The position numbers were made by a program, and so were the translations under genes. Shown in pieces: positions 4,217-17,862 of a stretch of 32,152 bases of DNA. The stretch comes from Planctomycetota bacterium. Lineage in GTDB: Bacteria; Planctomycetota; Phycisphaerae; UBA1845. The notes below the pieces were generated by a model. That model was given only the letters and a program-made list of their open reading frames with translations, did no database searches and was not told the origin of the DNA. The stretch lies in assembly GCA_013151185.1 (NCBI GenBank), contig JAADIU010000271.1:1-32152 (forward strand). The letters are read 5' to 3'. The first letter of the stretch is position 1. Every line of letters begins with the position of its first letter.

Positions 4217-4562
4217 CGTTGCAAATCGATTCCAGGTCGCACCAAGTCGATCCCGCATCCTCTGGAATCGTGGAACAGGAATATGTCTATTCCATTGCGT
4301 CTTGACATCGTGCAATACAAATTGATTTTCGTTTGTGTTCTGGCAGTTCTGAGAAGATGAATGGCACAGATCAACCACCGCCAATGCCGCTTCTGCAACT
4401 CGCAAATCACTCGGAATGCCAAAACACCAGCGACACCCTATGATCCCTTGGACGATGATGATCGTTGCAGGTACGATTTTGGATCGTGATTTTTTGGGTC
4501 GCTCCTCGTAGCGCGACGCCAAGACACTGAAGGAATGGGACACCGAAGCAATGGAGGGCCTC

Positions 4563-5201
4563 ATGGATCACACGGATGTACGGCGTTGGAATGCCATTCG
4601 ATTGCGACGAACTGTCGCGTTGGTCTTGCTGCTTCTCTTATTGCAAAGTTGTGCCGGTCCACAATCGCTGCGCGTGGCGATCATCCCTCAAGATGAAACC
4701 GATTACGTCGCGTTTGTGAACGACGCTGATTTCGATGGTCGGCAGGCGTTCGCAAACTGGATGTCGCAAGAGCGCGGTATTTCCCTCGAAGAGTTCTTCC
4801 GTCTCGATGCTGAATTATGCAATAACCGCAACCCGTTTGACGCATACAAGGATATGCAAGCAGTAAGCCGCGGTGCGGTGATCTATAAATTCCACTGCAT
4901 GAGATGCCATGGCAGTGATGCGAGGGGGCGCGGGCCTGCTGCTTTGGCAAGCTACCCTGCCAATGACTTCAAAACTTTTGGAAGCAGATTCGCGGCGACA
5001 CTGCACCGAGGTGCTCCGCGAAAATGGTTCCGCGTCATTCGCGACGGTGCAGGCGACGTTGTTGAGTATCCGGAAGAAGAGACAACAGCAATGCCTCCGT
5101 TTGGTGACAAACTCGCCCGCGAACAGATTTGGCTGACGATCGCATACCTACAAAGTCTCGATGTCCACGCTACGCAGGACGTAGCAGAACAGGACCGATG
5201 A
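4563..5201 (+). CDS. monohaem cytochrome c lipoprotein
   Basis: A 212-residue c-type cytochrome, probably anchored in a membrane facing the periplasm. ATG 4563 is favoured: GGAGGG at 4553-4558 precedes it, and the alternative ATG 4551 overlaps that site. Residues 14-30 are a lipoprotein signal (VALVLLLLLLQSC, lipobox Cys30). The haem site CMRCH is at 112-116, and Met177 in AMPPFGDKL is the likely sixth ligand, as in class I cytochromes. IWLTIAYLQSLD is the usual C-terminal helix. An N-terminal extension of about 80 residues before the haem domain is not recognised. The gene overlaps the next start (ATGA), so it heads the 4563-15615 gene run and may supply electron transfer to it. Confidence 0.85.
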   Translation: MDHTDVRRWNAIRLRRTVALVLLLLLLQSCAGPQSLRVAIIPQDETDYVAFVNDADFDGRQAFANWMSQERGISLEEFFRLDAELCNNRNPFDAYKDMQAVSRGAVIYKFHCMRCHGSDARGRGPAALASYPANDFKTFGSRFAATLHRGAPRKWFRVIRDGAGDVVEYPEEETTAMPPFGDKLAREQIWLTIAYLQSLDVHATQDVAEQDR

Positions 5202-6598
5202 TGCACCGCCCCCGCAACGGTCAGGATTTCGCCACTCTGTCACTCGTCCGCCCGGCACACTTGGATGTCGCGGACACGGTTCGATTGGTGCTCGAAAGTC
5301 AGCCGATGCGCGCTCTTGCTGCTCTGCTCAGCCGCAATGGGCTGGAAGTTGAAATACAGCCCATCGTCTACAAAGATCTTTCTGGTACATTGACACGTCT
5401 TATGTTTCCGGTGACCGGCGGCCCCATTGTTGACGGCGCCGTTGTGTCGGTCGTGTGCCTGTTCGACCGCAAATCCCGCGAAACCCTCTACGCCCATCCA
5501 ATGCACGCGGGCCCGGGCGTCAACCCTCTTGTTCGCCATCTTGATGGGCCGTTGGCTGCGCCCAAATCCCAAAGCGGTGCAGACGGAGATCGCGCAAGCC
5601 GGCGAATTATCGAGCATAAACAGGCTCTGTGGGATCGCTTCATTCATGAGTTGCCTATTCTTGGGAAAGAGGAAGCCGATCAACGTTGGCGCGAAGGATA
5701 CTACTGGTCGTTGCAACGTCTCTACTTCTGCTCGGGATGCACGCAGTGTAAATGGGGCAGCCCCTTCTTTGACGGCCCCGATCCGCTAGTGTCATCTGCA
5801 TCCACCGTTGCTACTGTTTCTACCAATGGCGACATCAGCCCGAAATTGCATGATCAGTACAGTGAAATCGTTGCGGACATTCTTTCCAGTGATGCCTGGC
5901 GCGTTGAAACGACCTACGCAGCGCGGGGTGGATTCTCCTTGATTGATTCTCCGCGGCTACTCAAAGAATTGGACAGCGAATTCGTCCAGGTGATTTTTTC
6001 TACAAACGCGGTCCTGCTACAGGCGGGCACGCTCGTCGCTGTTGCGTTTACATACCAAATTCGGTCGCAGGAAGTGGTGCTCTCTCACTGCCTCTGTGCA
6101 GGACCGGAGTCGGAAATCCAGTTTCAAAAAGGCGACGTAGCGTTCGGGTTGCCGCTACCGCAATCGGGTCATCTTGGCAAGGATGCGCGCTCGGCCTATC
6201 GGTCGTGGCGCCGCCGCGCTTGGTCGCAATTCTGGCTAAACGATCTCGATAACGGAACGGCTGTCGCAAGCGGGCGATGGCTCGAAGCATTCTGGGCCGC
6301 CATCGAAGCACTCTTCGGCGGGAATGATCTTTCCTATGGTAGTCAACCCGTCCGCCGATCGCCTGAGTTGGATATGCCGGACGCTATCAACACAACTCGT
6401 AGGAAACCGATCGTGCCGCCACAGGCTCTTGAAAACATCGGAGGACGTTGCTTCACCGGGCATGCAACCAACCGTAGCCGCTCCGAACTTCGTGCCCTAG
6501 GCCTGTCCACCCTCATGGTTAACGTGGGGCTGCAATCAGGCGTGCCACCATTGCCATGTCGAGTCGGGGCCCAATCGCACGGAAGAAATGACCCGTGA
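5198..6598 (+). CDS. unrecognised protein with internal duplication, merged with ArsS N-terminus
   Basis: ATG 5198 overlaps the cytochrome stop. I do not recognise the family. Residues about 30-177 and 227-374 are two copies of one domain at a constant 197-residue offset: VVSVVCLF (82-89) with LVAVAFTY (279-286), HAGP (103-106) with CAGP (300-303), W145xxF with W342xxF, and RW (163-164) with RW (360-361). Only copy 1 ends in a Cys cluster, FCSGCTQCKWG, which could bind metal. Residues about 393-445 differ: LSTLMVNVGL is the start of an ArsS-type radical SAM domain, whose remainder lies in another frame (see 6588). The last 20 residues are out-of-frame read-through. The true C-terminus of the duplicated protein is probably near residue 390, with either a fusion to ArsS or a lost stop. 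Confidence 0.6.
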   Translation: MMHRPRNGQDFATLSLVRPAHLDVADTVRLVLESQPMRALAALLSRNGLEVEIQPIVYKDLSGTLTRLMFPVTGGPIVDGAVVSVVCLFDRKSRETLYAHPMHAGPGVNPLVRHLDGPLAAPKSQSGADGDRASRRIIEHKQALWDRFIHELPILGKEEADQRWREGYYWSLQRLYFCSGCTQCKWGSPFFDGPDPLVSSASTVATVSTNGDISPKLHDQYSEIVADILSSDAWRVETTYAARGGFSLIDSPRLLKELDSEFVQVIFSTNAVLLQAGTLVAVAFTYQIRSQEVVLSHCLCAGPESEIQFQKGDVAFGLPLPQSGHLGKDARSAYRSWRRRAWSQFWLNDLDNGTAVASGRWLEAFWAAIEALFGGNDLSYGSQPVRRSPELDMPDAINTTRRKPIVPPQALENIGGRCFTGHATNRSRSELRALGLSTLMVNVGLQSGVPPLPCRVGAQSHGRNDP

Positions 6599-7466
6599 AA
6601 CGATCGATCTCGTACTCCTCGCGGTGCGACGCCTTGGTATTGAAACGCTTGATATCACCGGTGGCGCTCCGGAAATGAATCCGCATTTTCGGTACATGGC
6701 GAGAGAGGCAACGCGGCTTGGATGCCGAGTTGTTGATCGCTGCAACCTCACAATCTTCTTCGAGCCGGGATACGAATACTTGCCCGAGTTCCTGGCTGAG
6801 CATCATATTCAAATCACAGCTTCGCTTCCATCTGAACAAGGGGACATCGCCGATCGCCAGAGGGGAATAGGTAGCTTTAAGAAGAGTATCGCTGCGCTGC
6901 AAAAACTCAACAGCCTGGGATACGGAAAACCGAACTCCGGGCTGATCCTGAATCTGGTATCCAACCCTTCTAATACAGATCTAGCCGCACCTCAGGATTC
7001 ATTGGAACGACACTTCAAAGAGGAACTGCACAATCTCCACGGTATCACGTTCAACCGCCTTTTTGCCATGAACAATATGCCGATCAAACGGTTTGAACAT
7101 TACCTAAAGCGCGAAGACCGATGGGCAGAATATATGAATCGCCTCGTGTCGGAGTTCAATGCGGATACAGTGGATGGCCTCATGTGCCGCCGCACGCTTT
7201 CCGTCGGGTACGATGGCCGGTTGTACGACTGCGATTTCAACCAGGCCTTGGGACTACCGCTTAGTCCAGGCCTTCCCGAACACATCCGCGACCTTGACGA
7301 TTCAGTGTTAGAATCCCGCGCGATCAAAACGGGGGCTCACTGTTTCGGATGTTCAGCCGGGGCGGGCTCGTCGTGCAATGGCGCGCTCGTGGCAATTTCC
7401 TGTGGCGTGTCCGCGAGTCAGAACGGACACCCGACAAGAACCTTGTTGGGCGAGGCAGCTCCATGA
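6588..7466 (+). CDS. arsS: ArsS-type radical SAM protein, N-terminus out of frame
   Basis: This is the arsenosugar-biosynthesis radical SAM family, ArsS, which in known cases links an arsenic group to the 5'-deoxyadenosyl moiety of SAM. Supporting motifs are LDITGGAPEMNPHFR near the start, MCRRTLSVGYDGRLYDCDFNQALG, and the C-terminal Cys-rich box HCFGCSAGAGSSCNGAL. The [4Fe-4S] motif CNQACHHCHVESGPNRTEEM is present at 6531-6590 in this frame, but a TAG at 6498 and the absence of any start codon cut it off. The preceding LSTLMVNVGL is in the frame of the 5198 ORF. Joining the two needs about 5 nt more at 6530-6533 (see findings). From ATG 6588 the protein lacks its cluster and would be inactive. 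The gene overlaps the next one by ATGA. No arsM is visible. Confidence 0.75.
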   Translation: MTRETIDLVLLAVRRLGIETLDITGGAPEMNPHFRYMAREATRLGCRVVDRCNLTIFFEPGYEYLPEFLAEHHIQITASLPSEQGDIADRQRGIGSFKKSIAALQKLNSLGYGKPNSGLILNLVSNPSNTDLAAPQDSLERHFKEELHNLHGITFNRLFAMNNMPIKRFEHYLKREDRWAEYMNRLVSEFNADTVDGLMCRRTLSVGYDGRLYDCDFNQALGLPLSPGLPEHIRDLDDSVLESRAIKTGAHCFGCSAGAGSSCNGALVAISCGVSASQNGHPTRTLLGEAAP

Positions 7467-8992
7467 ACCATAAACCTATCGATATACTTCTCACGGGCGC
7501 GAGCGGGTTCCTTGGTCACTACATCCTCGCTGAATTGTTGGTGCATCCGCACGTTCGCTGCCGAGTACTGCTTCGCAATCCGGTTGCAGAGAACCTCGCT
7601 CGCTTGGAGCGGCTTCTCATAGACGTGGGTGTGAATCTTCCTGCAATGATGGCCAACAAACGCGTCACCGTAGTACAGGGAGAACTACCGAACTCACTTG
7701 GTTCGCTTGACGTTGACGGTGTGGATCTGATCATACATAGCGCAGGAAATACAGCCTTTAATGCCACCGGATCAGGCGAGCCGTCCAGAACAAATGTCGA
7801 TGGCACCCGGGCCATGTTGTCGCTGGCTACAAACGCGGGCATTCGTCGTTTCGTTTATGTCAGCACAGCCTACGTTTGCGGCGAGCAAGTCGGCCACCTG
7901 CCCGAAGCATTTTACCCGACCATGCCACCGGTACGCAATAACTACGAACGATCCAAGTGGGAGGCTGAAGCGCTTGTTTGGAATTGGAGCACATCAACGC
8001 GCACCGCTACAATCTGCCGACCTTCGATCCTCTTTGGCGATAGCCAAACCGGGCGCGCGACGACCGCAAAGGGCTTGCATCTTGTAGCAAAGGCAACCGA
8101 GATTCTTGCCCGGGCTGCGAACGATGGAAGCGAGGCTCACCGTCATCATATTCCGCTGCGAATCCTCGGGCGCAGTGACGCCACCTGCAATGTCGTACCC
8201 GTCGACTGGGCCGCCCGCCAAATCGCGACGATCACTTTGACGTCAACCACCGAACCATCAGTGCATCACATTACCAACCCCGACCCCCCAACCCATCAGG
8301 AAGTCAAAGAGTGGCTGGAGAAGTACTTCGACATCGCCGGCGGTCAATTCAGCGACGCGAGTTGGCCGCTAAGAGATTCCAACCACTACGAAGATTTGTT
8401 CTATTCATTGGGCAATATATGTCTCGACTATTTTCGTAATGGTCTCACATTTGAATCCCAATGCTCGGCGAACATACCAGCGGGCAAGCGTCTAATTGAC
8501 CAAGAAGCATTCTTCCAATCAATTAGCTACGCACAAGCAACAAACTGGTTCCGGTCACCCTACAAAATGAACAAAGCGGATGATCTCGAACAACGCTCCG
8601 ATGCGTTCAGCTCCAAATGGTACTTCGAGAGCTTCTTGCCCCGAGTTGTCCCCCGTTCTGCGATCACGAGAGTTAGTGAGCTAACGACGATCGTGCGGTA
8701 CACAATCACGGGGCCTGAGGGTGGTAGCTGGATATGCCGTTTTGACTCTGGCCAACTCAAAGAAACCCAAGCCGCACCTTCGGCATTGAAGCCCGAGTTT
8801 GAGTTTCGCTTGTCACACGAAGACTTGGTCGAGATCGCGGCTGGTCGAAAACCGATGCAAGACATATTCTTAAGTGGATGTGCGGAAATCTTAGGCAATG
8901 TAGAACAGGCGATGAAAATGGTTCCGATTATTGGCGCTCTCCTCAAGGAGTTCCCTGTGACCGACGTAGAGAATTCGGCTGTGAAATGCTGA
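7463..8992 (+). CDS. NAD(P)-dependent thioester-reductase-like protein with SCP2-like C-terminus
   Basis: A 509-residue protein starting at ATG 7463, overlapping the arsS stop (ATGA). Residues 8-20 hold the Rossmann motif TGASGFLG. NVDGTRAML, FVYVSTAYVCG (131-140) and Y161xxxK165 are the extended-SDR catalytic signatures, arranged as in thioester-reductase/fatty-acyl-CoA reductase (NAD_binding_4) domains. These reduce acyl thioesters to aldehydes or alcohols. Residues about 405-505 (FEFRLSHEDLVEIAAGRKPMQDIFLSG...) resemble an SCP2 lipid-binding domain, suggesting a lipophilic substrate. A 3'-beta-HSD or epimerase role is the alternative. Lipid substrate and reductase activity are inferred. 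It overlaps the hydrolase gene by 7 nt, so the two are probably translationally coupled. Confidence 0.7.
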   Translation: MNHKPIDILLTGASGFLGHYILAELLVHPHVRCRVLLRNPVAENLARLERLLIDVGVNLPAMMANKRVTVVQGELPNSLGSLDVDGVDLIIHSAGNTAFNATGSGEPSRTNVDGTRAMLSLATNAGIRRFVYVSTAYVCGEQVGHLPEAFYPTMPPVRNNYERSKWEAEALVWNWSTSTRTATICRPSILFGDSQTGRATTAKGLHLVAKATEILARAANDGSEAHRHHIPLRILGRSDATCNVVPVDWAARQIATITLTSTTEPSVHHITNPDPPTHQEVKEWLEKYFDIAGGQFSDASWPLRDSNHYEDLFYSLGNICLDYFRNGLTFESQCSANIPAGKRLIDQEAFFQSISYAQATNWFRSPYKMNKADDLEQRSDAFSSKWYFESFLPRVVPRSAITRVSELTTIVRYTITGPEGGSWICRFDSGQLKETQAAPSALKPEFEFRLSHEDLVEIAAGRKPMQDIFLSGCAEILGNVEQAMKMVPIIGALLKEFPVTDVENSAVKC

Positions 8993-9702
8993 CTGAAACG
9001 CTGACCACTGAAGAGAATGTTATTGAAGAGCGAGTCCGCATCCTGGGACGGAATCGCACGCTGGAAGGTGTGCTAACCTATCCCACTGGAAGGGCGACTT
9101 GCAGTGTGCTAATTGCCGGCCCTCATCCGTTTCTCGGCGGGGACATTCGCAACAATGTCGTTGCTACACTATCTAAATCGTTGGCATCACAAGGCGCGGT
9201 CGTACTCACATTTAATTACGGCGGTGTCGGAAGAAGTGAAGGTGGGCCCACAGATTGGCCTGCCGTGATGTCGGAATTTTGGAAGCATGGAACATTCAAA
9301 GAGGAACAGGGATGGGCGGAAGATACTGATTCTGCGATTTTTGCATTACGACAATGGTGCGCATCACCGCCAGTATTGGTCGGGTACAGTTTCGGTTGCT
9401 GGACGATAGTCAATTGTTTGCGAAAAGAGAAATTCCAGTCAATCGTCCTGATATCACCCAATCACAAACAACATATGTTCACACCGCTCTGCATATGCTC
9501 AGCCCCCTTGCTCTTGATTCACAGCGACAACGACTTCACCTGCAGTGAATGCGAGACTAAAGCATGGTTTGATTCTGTCCGCGAGCCGAAAACACGAATC
9601 CAGTTACCCGCCGGTGAACATTTCTTCCGCGGACATGAAGCGGAAGTTGCAAGTACCGTTGCGAAATTTCTTTGGCCGCAAGACGCCAATTCGGAGGCAT
9701 AG
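8986..9702 (+). CDS. alpha/beta hydrolase
   Basis: A 238-residue hydrolase. ATG 8986 overlaps the upstream stop by 7 nt; the longer open frame to 8878 is a shadow. The fold signs are AGPHPFLGG (oxyanion region, 44-52), TFNYGGVGRS, the nucleophile elbow GYSFG (Ser135), an acid in SDNDF (Asp181 or Asp183), and catalytic His212 in GEHFF. This resembles small COG2945-like hydrolases. Placed between a thioester-reductase-like protein and a LuxE/PaaK-like synthetase, it could act as an acyl-thioesterase or acyl-transferase that supplies the acid, as LuxD does. That role is inferred from context only. No signal peptide is seen, so it should be cytoplasmic. Confidence 0.8.
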   Translation: MLTETLTTEENVIEERVRILGRNRTLEGVLTYPTGRATCSVLIAGPHPFLGGDIRNNVVATLSKSLASQGAVVLTFNYGGVGRSEGGPTDWPAVMSEFWKHGTFKEEQGWAEDTDSAIFALRQWCASPPVLVGYSFGCWTIVNCLRKEKFQSIVLISPNHKQHMFTPLCICSAPLLLIHSDNDFTCSECETKAWFDSVREPKTRIQLPAGEHFFRGHEAEVASTVAKFLWPQDANSEA

Positions 9703-9708
9703 CTGGTT

Positions 9709-10791
9709 ATGTCTATGACAAGCACTGGGATCGAGGAGCGACTCCGCAGAGTCCTCGCGATCCATTTCGATCCGGAACTCGGTGCCCCGTACTGGATCAG
9801 ACGAGCCAAGGAATTCGGCTTCGATCCGCGAACCGAAATTAACTGCGTCGCCGACCTCGGTAAAATGGGCTCGATGGATCCGAAAAATCTTCCTATGTAT
9901 AAACTCGAGGAGTTTCTGCCGCGAACGCTGTTCGATCGTAAACATGAGTTGATTGTAGCTCAAACCGGTGGGACGCTGGGAAAACCGCTGTGGACGACGT
10001 ATTTGGAAAGGGAGTTTCGTGAAGCGTTTGTTGATCCCTTCACAGTTGCAGCAAGCGCACTCGGTTTCCCGATCGGTGGAACGTGGCTATATGTTGGGCC
10101 CTCCGGACCGCACGTTATCGCACGGGCGGCGGATGCGATCGCACGAACATCAGGATCCATCGCCCCATTTAGTGTGGATTTCGATTCCCGCTGGGCTCAA
10201 AAACTCTCTGCTGGTAGTTTCGCAGCAAAACGTTATCTCCAACACGTCGTCGACCAGGCTCTCGCGGTTTTGAATTCTCAGGAGATCACAGTACTCTTTT
10301 CGACACCGGTTGTCCTCCGGGCTCTAGCAGATGCGATGGACACCAAGCAACGCGCATGCATTTGTGGCGTACACTATGGCGGAATGGCTATCCAACCGGA
10401 AGACCTGGAAGAAATGCAGTCGGATATCTTTCCGAACGCCGTCCACCTGTGCGGATACGGCAACACGCTCTTTGGCTGCTGCCTCGAACTAAGCGCCATG
10501 GTAGGACGGGAATTAAGTTACTATCCCTATGGCGATCGCATTCTCTTTGGAGTTTTCGAAGAGAATGGCGAAAATACGGGTCGCCCGATTTATGATCGCG
10601 CTGGGGTTCATGGGGATTTGGTATTCTCCCGATTGGACGAAACGATTCTACTAATCAATGTTCTCGAACGAGACCATGTTCAACTGTGCAAGCCACCCGC
10701 TGATGCACCAAAGGAATTTCGGCACATGGGCGTGGCGTCACCTGTACCGCACGTCGAATACCGGAATGTTTCCGCAGTTTCACTCTATTAA
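9709..10791 (+). CDS. LuxE/PaaK-like adenylate-forming acyl synthetase
   Basis: A 360-residue protein of the ANL superfamily, nearest in size and layout to LuxE acyl-protein synthetase or a short phenylacetate-CoA ligase. The P-loop-like motif is TGGTLGKP (about residues 86-93), CGYGNTLFG stands where YGSTE-type motifs occur, and GVHGDLVFSRLDETILLINV resembles the PaaK/LuxE adenylate-binding region. The large PaaK C-terminal domain is missing. LuxE carries an acylated Cys near its C-terminus; here the last Cys is 327. GGAGG at 9693-9697 lies 11 nt before ATG 9709, and ATG 9715 is an alternative. It follows the hydrolase by 6 nt. Substrate is unknown; activation of a fatty or aryl acid is likely. 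Confidence 0.65.
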   Translation: MSMTSTGIEERLRRVLAIHFDPELGAPYWIRRAKEFGFDPRTEINCVADLGKMGSMDPKNLPMYKLEEFLPRTLFDRKHELIVAQTGGTLGKPLWTTYLEREFREAFVDPFTVAASALGFPIGGTWLYVGPSGPHVIARAADAIARTSGSIAPFSVDFDSRWAQKLSAGSFAAKRYLQHVVDQALAVLNSQEITVLFSTPVVLRALADAMDTKQRACICGVHYGGMAIQPEDLEEMQSDIFPNAVHLCGYGNTLFGCCLELSAMVGRELSYYPYGDRILFGVFEENGENTGRPIYDRAGVHGDLVFSRLDETILLINVLERDHVQLCKPPADAPKEFRHMGVASPVPHVEYRNVSAVSLY

Positions 10792-10806
10792 AGGCTTGGA
10801 TAATTC

Positions 10807-12333
10807 ATGATACGACCAATCGGCACGCAGACGTATCGAGCATCATTGTTCGGAATTTTAACCTTGGTATCACTGGCGGGCGGATGTGCTCCGTCACAAT
10901 TCAGCCCGGCAATCGCGTTCTATGCGGAGCAGTCGGCAGTGACCGACGCAGCCTCTCGTCATACTTCCACCTCCCCATACTACCGATTCAACTCGGCCAT
11001 ACTGAGCGACCTCGACGACGCTCTAAAACTGCGGGAAATAGCCGCACAGCGCACGTTGGCTGCCACAGTCTTACGCGACGCGAACGCACTCGCTTTGACA
11101 TCTACGACTAACGAGATTGAACGGATGCCTCCTCGTTTGCGGAAAACACTGGCGAACCCCGCCAAACTTGAGCCATCTGTCAGCAGGCTGAAACAACACT
11201 ATGCACAGCTTGCGAGCGAAGCGCTCAAAAACGACCTGCGCGATGTTGAAGAATTATCTTCGTCAGAACTAACGAATAAGTTGTGGGGAATGCGCTTAGG
11301 AGTTCAACTTCTTACGGATGATCGGGGACGCGCGGGTCGCCAAATCCTATATTCGTGGGCGGTTGTTGCTACCGCCGTCGGAATGGTGCAGGAAGAAGCA
11401 AGCCTACCAGAAAAGAACCGCGAGAAGACAAAGAAAGTATTCAGGCGTGTTGCGGTTTGGCGACCGTCCACATCCGGTGATGATTCGCTTCTCGCCAGGT
11501 ATGCCCCCGTGTTTGCGGTGGAGTGGCCCGAGAAACGTTCCTATGATGTAGACGACGATCGAATCGGTGCCGTCAAGTTGTCTGGCAACAGGCAGCGGAT
11601 AGAAGTACGCATCGATCCCTCTGAACCTACCGTATATTCATACAACACGACCGCTAAGATTGATGGACAACGTCTGCGACAGTTAAATTACGTTTGGTGG
11701 TTTCCCGAACGTCCGGAGATGGTGCAAGATGATCCGGCAGCGGGCCACATCGACGGGGCGATGCTGCGAATCACGCTTGATGGTAGCGGGAATCCGATTA
11801 TTGTTGAGTCGTCGTTGAACTGCGGCTGCGGACATGTTGTTTTCGTTTCCAACAGCTTAGAGTCTTCCGCGCGCGAGGCATTCGGTTCGCCGCTTCCCGG
11901 TAAACGTTTTTCTGTTGAGAAGAATGTGTTCGTGAAGAAGAACGTTTTCGTCATCGGTACGTTCGATGAGAGTGGGTCGGAAGTTCGCCCAATCATACTG
12001 TCAGCCGCAGGCTACCACGAAGTTTGTCAAGTCAGGTTTAATGCAACGGAATCGCTCCGAGCTTTGAGCATAGCGGAAGATGATTCGTATCGACTTGCGG
12101 AATACAACACACTCGACCGCCTGCCTTTCGGTGACGGCATCGCCAGCATGTTCGGTCCGGATGGTCTCGTTCACTATGCTGGGCGTCCTGAGGGTTATTT
12201 GTTTGCGCCGTCAGGAATCCTAAGTGCTGGTCAACCACGAAAGCGTGGCACACAGCGAATTCGCTGGGATGATTATCTGCACGACGATCCATGCCTATTG
12301 GAAAAAACACTGCGTATTCCGCCACTCAATTGA
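10807..12333 (+). CDS. large lipoprotein of unknown function
   Basis: A 508-residue protein starting at ATG 10807, 15 nt after the synthetase gene. A lipoprotein signal covers residues 1-27 (FGILTLVSLAGGC), so it is likely membrane-anchored outside the cytoplasm. I do not recognise any domain. The N-terminal third is helical with many Leu, Ala and Glu residues. The C-terminal half is beta-rich and includes LNYVWWFPERPEMV, HIDGAMLRITLDGSG and SSLNCGCGHVVFVSNS. The CGCGH motif is a possible metal or haem-like site but does not fit CxxCH. A short duplication gives VEKNVFVKKNVFV. Its place in the gene run suggests an envelope partner of the pathway. Confidence 0.65.
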   Translation: MIRPIGTQTYRASLFGILTLVSLAGGCAPSQFSPAIAFYAEQSAVTDAASRHTSTSPYYRFNSAILSDLDDALKLREIAAQRTLAATVLRDANALALTSTTNEIERMPPRLRKTLANPAKLEPSVSRLKQHYAQLASEALKNDLRDVEELSSSELTNKLWGMRLGVQLLTDDRGRAGRQILYSWAVVATAVGMVQEEASLPEKNREKTKKVFRRVAVWRPSTSGDDSLLARYAPVFAVEWPEKRSYDVDDDRIGAVKLSGNRQRIEVRIDPSEPTVYSYNTTAKIDGQRLRQLNYVWWFPERPEMVQDDPAAGHIDGAMLRITLDGSGNPIIVESSLNCGCGHVVFVSNSLESSAREAFGSPLPGKRFSVEKNVFVKKNVFVIGTFDESGSEVRPIILSAAGYHEVCQVRFNATESLRALSIAEDDSYRLAEYNTLDRLPFGDGIASMFGPDGLVHYAGRPEGYLFAPSGILSAGQPRKRGTQRIRWDDYLHDDPCLLEKTLRIPPLN

Positions 12334-12342
12334 AAGTGCCGC

Positions 12343-13569
12343 ATGTCCAGTGTGACTATCATACTCCTGGCTGGGTGGGGCGCTATTTGCAGTGTTTGGT
12401 TCGGGCTGATCGTCGCTCAAAACCGGGCAAAGCGCGACGGGTTGTTCCTCGAAGTCGCTTCGACGGCAGGCGCAGAAACGATTCCGCGCGAAACCCTCCC
12501 CAACGTCTGCGTGGTTATCGCCGCAAGAAACGAAGCTGCGGGGTTGGTTGACTGCCTTCGCAATATACTACAACAAGACTATCCGAAACTATCAATCCGA
12601 GTGATTGATGATCGTAGCGAAGATGACACCTTCGCCATCGCTCAGGAGATCGCGCGCACTGATCCCCGGATTCGCGTCGATCGTATCGACCAGCTACCAC
12701 CCGGTTGGATGGGAAAGTCGCACGCGCTGTGGCGAGGCACGCGAAATGTTTCCTGCGACCGGTTCCTCTTTACGGACGTTGATTGCAAACTCGCACCCCA
12801 AGCCATTTCTCGGGCGATCCAGGAAGCCGACAAGAGAAACGTGGAACTCCTGACGCTCTGGCCACAGCAGTCAGCCGGCGGATTCTGGGAGCATACGATC
12901 ATTCCTTTGTGCGGTGGGATCATTGCACTTTGGTTCGGGTCGCAGCGAGTCAACAGCCCGCACAGCTCGCTCGCATTCGCCAATGGCCAGTTCCTACTAT
13001 TTGAACGGGAGGCCTACGAACGTATTGGCGGCCATGAAGCTGTTCGCTCAGCACTCATCGAAGATATTCCGCTGGCTGAGCAGGCCAAGAAATCGAATGT
13101 GCGGTGCTGGGTCGCCTCCGGACGCGATCTCGTCTCGGTGCGCATGTATGATAACTACAACGCAATCATAAACGGCTGGGCAAGGATATATGTCGGGGCG
13201 TTGCGTAGTGGTAGCAAGATTGCAATCAGTATCATCTGGTTGCTATTCGGTTCACTGCTTCCATACGTCGCGGGAATCTATTTGATAGTAAGGTTTCTCG
13301 CGATGCAGGAGGCAGGTGAAACGATCAGTATGGACTTCATCGGGTTTGCGGTCATGTGCGTCAACCACTTAACACTGATGATGATCGCCAGCTATCGTTT
13401 CTGGGGAATGGGAGGGTGCCGCCGCCTCGATCTACTTTGGTACCCGCTATCCGTCTGCGTCGTGATAGGAATCCTGATCCGATCCTGGTGGTGGCTGATC
13501 GTCCGCCGAAGCATCCCGTGGCGAAACACACGATATGTCATCGACCGTCAGGCAACAATCGTGGAGTGA
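12343..13569 (+). CDS. family 2 glycosyltransferase, HpnB/CrtQ-like, membrane-bound
   Basis: A 408-residue GT2 protein starting 9 nt after the lipoprotein gene. An N-terminal membrane helix (SSVTIILLAGWGAICSVWFG) precedes the GT-A domain: VVIAARNEAAGL, YPKLSIRVIDDRSEDDT (nucleotide-binding Asp pair), LPPGWMGKSHAL, LFTDVDCKLAP (DxD), and IEDIPLAEQAK as the acceptor-side acidic motif. Three or four membrane helices follow (IIWLLFGSLLPYVAGIYLIV and others). PPGW(M/T)GK and this topology are typical of hopanoid-associated HpnB and carotenoid glycosyltransferase CrtQ relatives. The acceptor is therefore probably a membrane lipid, and the sugar is unknown. No squalene or hopene cyclase gene is present in the window, so the hpnB name is not given. 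Confidence 0.8.
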   Translation: MSSVTIILLAGWGAICSVWFGLIVAQNRAKRDGLFLEVASTAGAETIPRETLPNVCVVIAARNEAAGLVDCLRNILQQDYPKLSIRVIDDRSEDDTFAIAQEIARTDPRIRVDRIDQLPPGWMGKSHALWRGTRNVSCDRFLFTDVDCKLAPQAISRAIQEADKRNVELLTLWPQQSAGGFWEHTIIPLCGGIIALWFGSQRVNSPHSSLAFANGQFLLFEREAYERIGGHEAVRSALIEDIPLAEQAKKSNVRCWVASGRDLVSVRMYDNYNAIINGWARIYVGALRSGSKIAISIIWLLFGSLLPYVAGIYLIVRFLAMQEAGETISMDFIGFAVMCVNHLTLMMIASYRFWGMGGCRRLDLLWYPLSVCVVIGILIRSWWWLIVRRSIPWRNTRYVIDRQATIVE

Positions 13570-16207: not shown

Positions 16208-16637
16208 ACGTCGATAGAATTGCCCTTGCCGGTACCGTGAGCAGGGGAAAGGGATGGCTGTAGCGAATTAAAGTGTCTCTGTGTTGTCGGAACAAAAATC
16301 ACAGGAAGTGTGCGATATTCCCTTGAAATGCTCTGCCGGCTCGGGTACCGTGATTAGTAGAGAGAAATATGGGAGGGAATCCACGAGAGAGAAGGCGGAT
16401 TTGCCCGATTGTAGTTGGGGTGCATCTGCAATAACAAACCGGTTCTGTGTCAGGGCGGCTAAGTACAGGGCGGCCTAAGTCAGAGCAATCTGAATTGTTC
16501 GCGTTGACTGTTTGGCCATGACCGGCGGATTCCCAAAAAGAAAACTGAATAACGGAAACTTGGACAGGTGAGTGCCTGTTCGTCATCGATTCATGCGTAG
16601 CGGTTGCGCTGCGCGCTTCTCTTGGGAGGGAGATGGG
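16208..16637. other. 430-nt intergenic interval with short tandem repeat
   Basis: No gene is supported here. It holds two tandem near-copies of a 15-nt unit beginning CAGGGCGGC (16451-16465 and 16466-16480), and two occurrences of GGTACCGTGA (about 16230 and 16344). It presumably includes the promoter of the PEP-CTERM pair, but no convincing -35/-10 was found. Confidence 0.45.
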
Positions 16638-17270
16638 ATGACACATTGCGCGGGTACTGCGCGTCTGGCGATCTTGATCGCCGCGATCGCAGGTACAGTG
16701 GGTATCAATCAGGTTCAAGCCAGCTCGTTCACAGTGGCAACCTTCGCCGATCCGTCACCCGGGTCGGAGATGCCTTTGTTTGAATTCTCTGCCGACGTGC
16801 TGTCGGGGGGATGGTCCGGAACGGGCTTGACGCTTGAAACGCTGGTTGGCGACTTCGACGACGTCACGTTCACCATGACCGACACGACGGTGGTGCCAGT
16901 TGGCGGGGGTGTTCTGCAATTCTTTGATTCGATGTCCGATCTGCTGTTGAAGATCGAATTCGATTCATCTTCGTTTTCCCCCATCGGTTTCGGTTCCAGC
17001 GATCCCACAGGTGTGGTTACCATGTCTGGCCCGGTGATCGAAGTCGGGTTCGGTGTGCTCAGCATTGGCGGTGAAGAGACCTTCAGCTTTGCGTTCGCCA
17101 ATCAAGTTGGGACACCGGCAGATTTTACGACCACGGCTGCTTTCACATCTTCGACGACGAGCACTCCGATTCCTGAACCCGTGAGCCTGATGTTGCTCGC
17201 AGGTGGTGCAGGGTTTGTGATGTTGCGTCGTCGCCAAATCAAAATCAAGGGGGGGAAGAACAATGGGTAG
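16638..17270 (+). CDS. PEP-CTERM exported protein, copy 1
   Basis: A 210-residue exported protein. ATG 16638 is chosen for GGGAGGG at 16624-16630, 7 nt upstream. Residues 1-31 are a signal peptide ending QVQAS. The body is beta-rich: FTVATFADPSPGSEMPLFEF, LSGGWSGTGLTLET, then FTMTDTTV. The C-terminus is a textbook PEP-CTERM tail: PEPVSLMLL, a hydrophobic stretch (AGGAGFVML), and RRRQ. Such tails direct proteins to an exosortase for cleavage and surface attachment. No exosortase is in the window. The stop overlaps the start of the next, paralogous gene by 8 nt, so they are translationally coupled. Surface or matrix function is inferred. Confidence 0.85.
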   Translation: MTHCAGTARLAILIAAIAGTVGINQVQASSFTVATFADPSPGSEMPLFEFSADVLSGGWSGTGLTLETLVGDFDDVTFTMTDTTVVPVGGGVLQFFDSMSDLLLKIEFDSSSFSPIGFGSSDPTGVVTMSGPVIEVGFGVLSIGGEETFSFAFANQVGTPADFTTTAAFTSSTTSTPIPEPVSLMLLAGGAGFVMLRRRQIKIKGGKNNG

Positions 17271-17862
17271 GTTGTTTTCAATTAGAGGCGGCGCCTCAGC
17301 GCTGTTTATTGTCGCATGTGGTTTTGCCTTCGCGGCAACGCCAGCTTTGGCAGTCCCATTTACGGTGGCTACCTTTGCAGATCCGGCGACTTCTTCTGCG
17401 ACACCGTTGTTTGAGATGGTCGGTGATAAGCTATCGGGCGGTTGGTCAGGCGCTGGCTTGACTCTTCAAACACCGGGTTTGCCGAACATAGATTACACAG
17501 ACGCGAAATTCACGATGACAGAGATCACCGTCAACATGGACGAGACGACAACCGGTGGGATGGTTTCATTTTTCGCGTCAAACGATGACCCCCTGTTCAC
17601 CATTACATTCGCCAGTGGCGAGGTCAACGGTGACCTGGGTTTTGGAGCGGCTGACTTTGTGGGTAACGACGTCACGATCACCGTGCCGGGTTTTCCGTTC
17701 ACATTGTTCGATGAGGCGTTCTCATTCAGCTTCGCAAATAAAGTGACGACGCCCAATGGTTTTACGGTGACCGCGGGCTTTACATCCTCCGCAACCCCCG
17801 AGCCAGCCAGCATGACCCTGATCGCAATCGGTGCTGCGTTCGTGCTGCGACGACGCAGGTAG
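17263..17862 (+). CDS. PEP-CTERM exported protein, copy 2
   Basis: A 199-residue paralogue of the preceding gene. GGGGGGAAG precedes ATG 17263. The signal peptide ends ATPALAVP. The mature start, FTVATFADPATSSATPLFEM, then LSGGWSGAGLTLQT, FTMTEITV and FSFSFANKVTTPNGFTVTAGFTSS align line by line with copy 1, so this is a tandem duplication with divergence. The tail is PEPASMTLIAIGAAFVL followed by RRRR. The shared FTVATFADP and SGGWSG motifs define the family better than the sorting tail. A bidirectional terminator follows at 17901. Confidence 0.85.
   Translation: MGRLFSIRGGASALFIVACGFAFAATPALAVPFTVATFADPATSSATPLFEMVGDKLSGGWSGAGLTLQTPGLPNIDYTDAKFTMTEITVNMDETTTGGMVSFFASNDDPLFTITFASGEVNGDLGFGAADFVGNDVTITVPGFPFTLFDEAFSFSFANKVTTPNGFTVTAGFTSSATPEPASMTLIAIGAAFVLRRRR

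Follow-up and report, generated by a model that had tools for sequence, protein, structure and literature searches.

A putative carboxylate-activation and reduction module in a planctomycetal operon and the conservation of its gene trio across phyla

The window analysed here, the whole of contig JAADIU010000271.1 (assembly GCA_013151185.1; contig C125 in our numbering; 32,152 nucleotides), belongs to a 3.7 Mb genome in 357 contigs, whose closest named relatives in a scan of Genome Taxonomy Database (GTDB) contigs are Planctomycetota metagenome-assembled genomes, many of them carrying the label Phycisphaerae. Three consecutive genes of its plus strand encode a short-chain dehydrogenase/reductase (SDR) with an SCP2 tail, an alpha/beta hydrolase and a small adenylate-forming enzyme (adenylase), together referred to as the trio. 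We give about even credence to the trio activating and reducing a carboxylate as one module, the part that stays constant in a biosynthetic cluster found across phyla. The gene content and order, the protein families, the conserved active-site residues and the co-occurrence of the genes are observed; the reactions, the substrate and the product are what we infer. An earlier reading made from the letters of the window (the sequence-only reading) had reported three same-strand genes overlapping or abutting at 7463-10791, and an open reading frame (ORF) check found genes and coordinates correct. The ATG of the hydrolase overlaps the SDR stop codon and the adenylase starts after a gap of 6 bases. 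The genes and domains are the following:

7463..8992, plus strand: SDR of 509 amino acids with NAD_binding_4 and SCP2 domains, matching the R domain of MxaA at 6e-35, YxxxK invariant
7490..8224, plus strand: NAD_binding_4 domain of the SDR (residues 10-254), YxxxK at residues 161-165
8657..8929, plus strand: SCP2 domain of the SDR (residues 399-489), Pfam E 9.9e-9, SCP2 structures found in the PDB search
8986..9702, plus strand: predicted alpha/beta hydrolase of COG2945 type (PDB 3trd, 2i3d, 2fuk), Ser135/Asp183/His212
9709..10791, plus strand: predicted EhpF-like adenylate-forming enzyme without the C-terminal lid domain, PDB profile match to EhpF (3l2k/3hgu) at 2e-51

Both Pfam assignments of the SDR exceed their cut-offs, with 117 bits for NAD_binding_4 (PF07993, cut-off 20.1 bits) and 35.9 bits for SCP2, whereas the competing models Epimerase and 3Beta_HSD reach 73 and 50 bits. 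Among the NCBIfam models, the thioester-reductase model TIGR01746 scored best (109 bits), followed by PRK07201 (95 bits), with weaker matches to HpnA (58 bits) and OleD (32 bits); these scores disfavour an identity as OleD or as the hopanoid epimerase. When the SDR profile (A2) was run against the PDB, the reductase (R) domain of MxaA came first and other R domains of nonribosomal peptide synthetases and polyketide synthases (NRPS/PKS) next, and SCP2 structures matched the tail. The nucleotide-binding glycines, the S-T pair and the YxxxK are kept in an alignment of 16 homologues, with YxxxK invariant in all 16 rows. The protein thus combines a PF07993 score beyond the cut-off with a conserved YxxxK, the two features by which we assign thioester/acyl reductases. 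Judged by these homologies, the SDR is nearest to thioester-reductase domains and not to LuxC, epimerases or sterol dehydrogenases. This bears out the earlier description of a thioester-reductase-type enzyme with an SCP2-like tail, and a grouping with sterol dehydrogenases or epimerases, which would have spoken against it, was not seen, since reductase models and R domains score best. In the close clade of the window, the C-terminal residue of the SDR is a Cys in 9/9 proteins (window 8987-8989 and L032-L039) while the preceding residues vary; it is not kept in more distant loci.

The adenylase carries the phosphate-binding loop TGGTLGKP and an ERD motif, and matches PF00501 weakly (E 0.012). 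Its profile (A1) has one strong relative in the PDB, EhpF, matched over residues 6-328 of 360, and the alignment with EhpF made with A4 runs from residue 6 to 324. Considering the homology along the length and the C-terminal lid domain lacking in both, we classify it as EhpF-like and not as LuxE. EhpF belongs to phenazine biosynthesis, and for EhpF/EhpG, of the D-alanylgriseoluteic acid pathway, a route from acid to aldehyde via an acyl-adenylate has reportedly been proposed. Bera et al. 2010 are said to have described EhpF as being without the usual C-terminal domain, and as the proposed partner of EhpG in reducing a phenazine dicarboxylate via the acyl-adenylate. The trio does not, however, form an EhpF/EhpG pair, as the partners here are the SCP2-tailed SDR and the hydrolase instead of an aldehyde-dehydrogenase-type EhpG. 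A partner of this latter type is found beside a second, type-B EhpF-like gene of the same genome (locus L049, G000:C281:8500-19686; 30% identical to the window adenylase), which has genes for an aldehyde-dehydrogenase-type enzyme and an iron alcohol dehydrogenase after it, in an EhpF/EhpG-like arrangement, and whose close relatives are common within the order. Proteins of the adenylase family have a conserved C-terminal Tyr, mostly as LY (window 10780-10788), and this ending is shared by the type-B paralogues and by the distant L099/L100.

In the PDB profile search the hydrolase matched 3trd (1e-33), 2i3d and 2fuk, with E from 1e-33 to 1e-17; these structures belong to COG2945. The triad S135/D183/H212 (counted from the ATG at 8986) is invariant in all 17 alignment rows, in agreement with the full triad noted earlier, and with the homology to the three structures the protein is best assigned to the COG2945 type and not to LuxD. 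None of the trio matched the LuxC, LuxD and LuxE families (PF05893, PF02273 and PF04443) in Pfam at E ≤ 1, a result with which very remote homology is still compatible, and membership of the Lux families was rejected. The label LuxE/PaaK-like, given to the adenylase in the sequence-only reading, is thereby replaced, with EhpF as the only strong PDB relative and PF04443 without a match. What the trio shares with LuxCDE is that the presumed roles of reductase, hydrolase/transferase and acyl-activating enzyme are divided among three separate proteins; it differs in the fold family of the SDR, which is not that of LuxC, and in an operon without luciferase genes. Of the correspondence once drawn to the reductase, transferase and synthetase of Lux, acid activation and reduction is retained as the best functional reading, but the protein families are others. 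By analogy with LuxCDE, EhpF/EhpG or a carboxylic acid reductase, the trio plausibly leads from acid over acyl-adenylate to aldehyde; it is not a Lux complex. A true functional analogue of LuxCDE, making long-chain aldehyde or alcohol from a fatty acid for an ether lipid, wax or hydrocarbon, is in our judgement unlikely: by family the three activities are the same, an SCP2 tail suits a lipid and MMPL transporters are among the neighbours (see below), but the only strong solved relative of the adenylase comes from phenazine biosynthesis, the MqnD-like and UbiU/V-like neighbours suggest aromatic chemistry, and neither an ether-lipid nor a luciferase gene was seen among the operon genes scanned with Pfam.

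The co-occurrence of the trio was surveyed in 101 genomes, the own genome and 100 relatives. Type-A adenylases (46-70% identity), the hydrolase (E ≤ 1e-10) and the SCP2-tailed SDR are found in an identical set of 18 of the 101 genomes, adjacent to each other on one contig; in this set, the contig of G088 ends within the SDR, and in G017 the SDR is split over two frames. One extra genome (G029) has a partial SDR containing a stop, and the remaining SDR matches, 33-41% identical, cover the dehydrogenase part only. The chance of full two-gene agreement under random placement is 1/C(101,18) = 2.7e-20, a value uncorrected for relatedness and too strong as a p-value given shared ancestry. Since the distribution is patchy within families, the coupling is nonetheless clear. 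Scanning GTDB contigs with the adenylase alignment returned 56 loci, unlike a single adenylase sequence as query, which gave no matches, and family clustering placed an SDR in 42 of these loci, an adenylase in 42 and a hydrolase in 40. The three families lie near each other in anammox bacteria (Brocadia, Jettenia, Anammoxibacter), Desulfobulbaceae, other Planctomycetota and others, often in changed gene order. With the trio so strongly conserved together, within the 18 genomes and across phyla, and the SDR siding with thioester/acyl reductases, neither of the two outcomes named beforehand as contradicting the sequence-only reading was observed.

As a working mechanism for the module, the EhpF-like enzyme would convert a carboxylic acid and ATP to an acyl-adenylate, the SCP2 tail of the SDR would hold the hydrophobic acyl or aryl part, and NAD(P)H-dependent reduction by the SDR, of the acyl-adenylate itself or of a thioester derived from it, would yield an aldehyde or alcohol. 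Acyl groups might be removed or transferred by the serine hydrolase, either for editing or for thioester/ester release, and the class-III aminotransferase encoded in many clusters could take up the aldehyde. Several points weigh against acid activation and reduction. The SDR stays under the curated cut-off of TIGR01746 (109 versus 213 bits), and not every NAD_binding_4 protein is an acyl reductase. The hydrolase family is functionally broad, fusions between any of the three enzymes were sought and none was found, and no carrier protein or domain was listed in the Pfam scan of the operon proteins. The last point also separates the trio from the carboxylic acid reductases and R-domain enzymes such as MxaA: the reductase part is homologous to R domains, but the enzymes sit on separate chains, with an added SCP2 tail, and not on the single chain of adenylation, carrier and reductase domains that defines a carboxylic acid reductase. 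If the module does work as proposed, it would be an acid-to-aldehyde system joining a lid-less EhpF-like adenylase to a reductase with its own lipid-binding tail.

The trio lies in an operon on the plus strand (4551-13569), in which successive genes overlap or are at most 16 bases apart, in the order cytochrome c, F5N-ArsS fusion (discussed below), SDR, alpha/beta hydrolase, small adenylase, F2 and family 2 glycosyltransferase (GT2). The outer genes are:

4551..5201, plus strand: cytochrome c (Pfam Cytochrome_CBB3/Cytochrom_C), first gene of the operon
10807..12333, plus strand: F2, a predicted lipoprotein of no known sequence family, present in 19 trio loci, with a confident structure model
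12343..13569, plus strand: GT2 glycosyltransferase, HpnB/CruG-like below the cut-off (Glycos_transf_2 70.8 bits), present in 13 loci

The cytochrome c gene upstream of the trio is kept in many relatives, as seen by tblastn of the locus contexts. Foldseek returned nothing for the F2 model (pLDDT 89.5) at E < 1; VIA-align relates the second half to an NLP-like beta-sandwich (Z 9.7, root-mean-square deviation 3.8, 178 aligned), a likeness of fold only, and a CGC motif is invariant across the F2 family. Counted by locus, the recurrent partners are class-III aminotransferase (25), MMPL transporter (24), F2 (19), multihaem cytochromes (14), GT2 (13), PF02621 proteins (13) and U32 proteins (12). The U32 protein of L083 has UbiU-like and UbiV-like regions, under the curated cut-offs. 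In L107, the PF02621 protein is similar to the MqnD of Thermus, TTHA1568 (2czl/3a3u; 9e-38), and the active-site Ser, Thr and His of MqnD have aligned counterparts in it. L107 combines SDR, hydrolase, adenylase, MqnD-like protein, aminotransferase, F2, GT2, MMPL transporter, cytochrome c and a two-component pair, a gene content that ties the window operon to the wider family. In many relatives a divergent pair of histidine kinase and Fis-type response regulator genes stands upstream of the operon (e.g., L032:2204-4359); this pair was not found in the window.

Some of these neighbours would also fit a different scheme, one without acyl reduction, in which the acid activated by the adenylase goes into an ester or amide, the SDR works as a dehydrogenase or epimerase on an SCP2-carried sugar, sterol or hopanoid-like lipid, and the cluster decorates a membrane lipid exported by MMPL. 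Hopanoid clusters contain HpnN and HpnO, which the MMPL and class-III aminotransferase neighbours recall, the GT2 resembles HpnB (167 bits, cut-off 379), and the SDR has its weaker HpnA and Epimerase matches. We regard this scheme as rather unlikely though far from negligible: the reductase models score higher throughout, R domains lead the PDB ranking, and the matches of the GT2 and MMPL proteins to hopanoid families are far under the cut-offs.

Returning to acid activation and reduction, the core is joined in many clusters by c-type cytochromes, an exporter of MMPL type and proteins that are MqnD-like and/or UbiU/V-like. The aminotransferase, MMPL, MqnD-like, UbiU/V-like and cytochrome neighbours suggest an exported, possibly aromatic metabolite. 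As the trio stands beside MqnD-like and UbiU/V-like proteins in several clusters, we consider aromatic and fatty acids equally likely as substrates. A far-reaching version, which we put forward as speculation and consider quite unlikely, is that the wider cluster makes an exported redox-active aromatic lipid (naphthoate- or phenazine-like), where a futalosine-type MqnD-like enzyme and UbiU/V-like proteins would supply the acid, the trio would reduce its carboxyl, the aminotransferase and MMPL protein would finish and export the product and periplasmic cytochromes would exchange electrons with it, the window clade having swapped the acid branch for a fused ArsS-like enzyme. No description of this gene cluster was found in the open literature searched. 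Should the proposed module be real, anammox bacteria, Desulfobulbaceae and deep-sea Planctomycetota, which hold key places in the nitrogen and sulfur cycles, would make a metabolite of which our searches gave no description; one version of the cluster is present in a cultured bacterium, Desulfopila aestuarii DSM 18488.

The gene directly upstream of the SDR, whose stop codon overlaps the SDR start as ATGA, was read earlier as ArsS. An ArsS half does adjoin the SDR, but its gene is broken: in relatives, F5N and ArsS form one ORF of about 750 amino acids with the ArsS-like domain C-terminal, and in the window 5 bases are lost near 6528, just before the first Cys of the radical SAM motif. The parts are:

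5198..6598, plus strand: F5N, N-terminal half of the F5N-ArsS fusion, read through the frameshift to a stop, with two related repeats
6500..6560, plus strand: site of the 5-base loss, which throws the halves into different frames (DNA alignment with L032, three-frame translation)
6531..7466, plus strand: ArsS-like radical SAM half of the fusion, with no start codon of its own before 6588

Either a real mutation or an error of assembly may account for the loss; the CxxxCxxC motif survives intact in the downstream frame. Against the curated cut-off of 300 bits for TIGR04167 (ArsS), this half scores 352.7 bits over 6588-7463 and 398.7 bits over 6525-7388 (422 bits in L032), and is thus assigned to the ArsS family despite the frameshift. 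F5N has no Pfam or PDB match and no detectable relatives of known family, and its structure model is of low confidence. A single-domain F5N-like gene without ArsS lies directly before F2 at L041:3072-3605, with a similar stretch before F2 in L048; since both halves of F5N match the one L041 domain, F5N looks like a tandem duplication.

The fused ArsS copies cluster together and separately from stand-alone ArsS (support 97/93), and an intact stand-alone ArsS is also present in the own genome (C29), as in several other fusion-bearing genomes. By phylogeny and distribution, the fused form is a lineage-specific paralogue added in a subclade, and the link of the trio to arsenic chemistry is weak. 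A known ArsM-ArsS arsenosugar operon shares with the window the ArsS family match beyond the cut-off; here, in contrast, ArsS is one half of a frameshifted fusion whose other half fits no known family, and ArsM is absent from the operon genes. Neither adjacent to ArsS nor tracking it, as would be expected for an arsenosugar operon, ArsM beyond the cut-off occurs irrespective of the fusion, and in G037 (100% complete) the fusion is present with a best ArsM match of 96 bits (cut-off 263). An arsenolipid synthesis, in which the aldehyde or alcohol of the trio is joined to the ArsS product as had been suggested earlier, could draw on the fused ArsS lying immediately before the SDR in 10 loci. With the fusion confined to a subclade, most trio loci without an adjacent ArsS, and the low ArsM score of G037, this link fails as a general feature; in view also of the separate grouping of the fused copies and of a GT2 that does not match TIGR04283 at the cut-off, we consider arsenolipid synthesis highly improbable. 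Assigning a gene to ArsS in a neighbourhood of this kind does not necessarily imply arsenic chemistry.

Of the 18 genomes with the trio, 4 that lack the fusion have aminotransferase and MqnD-like genes of the cluster type (58-66% identical to those of L107), against 0/11 that carry it (Fisher p 0.011, uncorrected for relatedness). Within one genus, G033 and G043 differ in this respect: one has the fused ArsS and no cluster MqnD-like or aminotransferase gene, the other the reverse. This pattern may reflect the exchange of an upstream branch and is taken as a lead only; the cluster of the window clade has the fused ArsS-like radical SAM gene and is without the cluster copies of the aminotransferase and MqnD-like genes.

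Outside the operon, two related tandem genes at 16572-17862 of the window encode, by the look of their translations, exported proteins of PEP-CTERM type.

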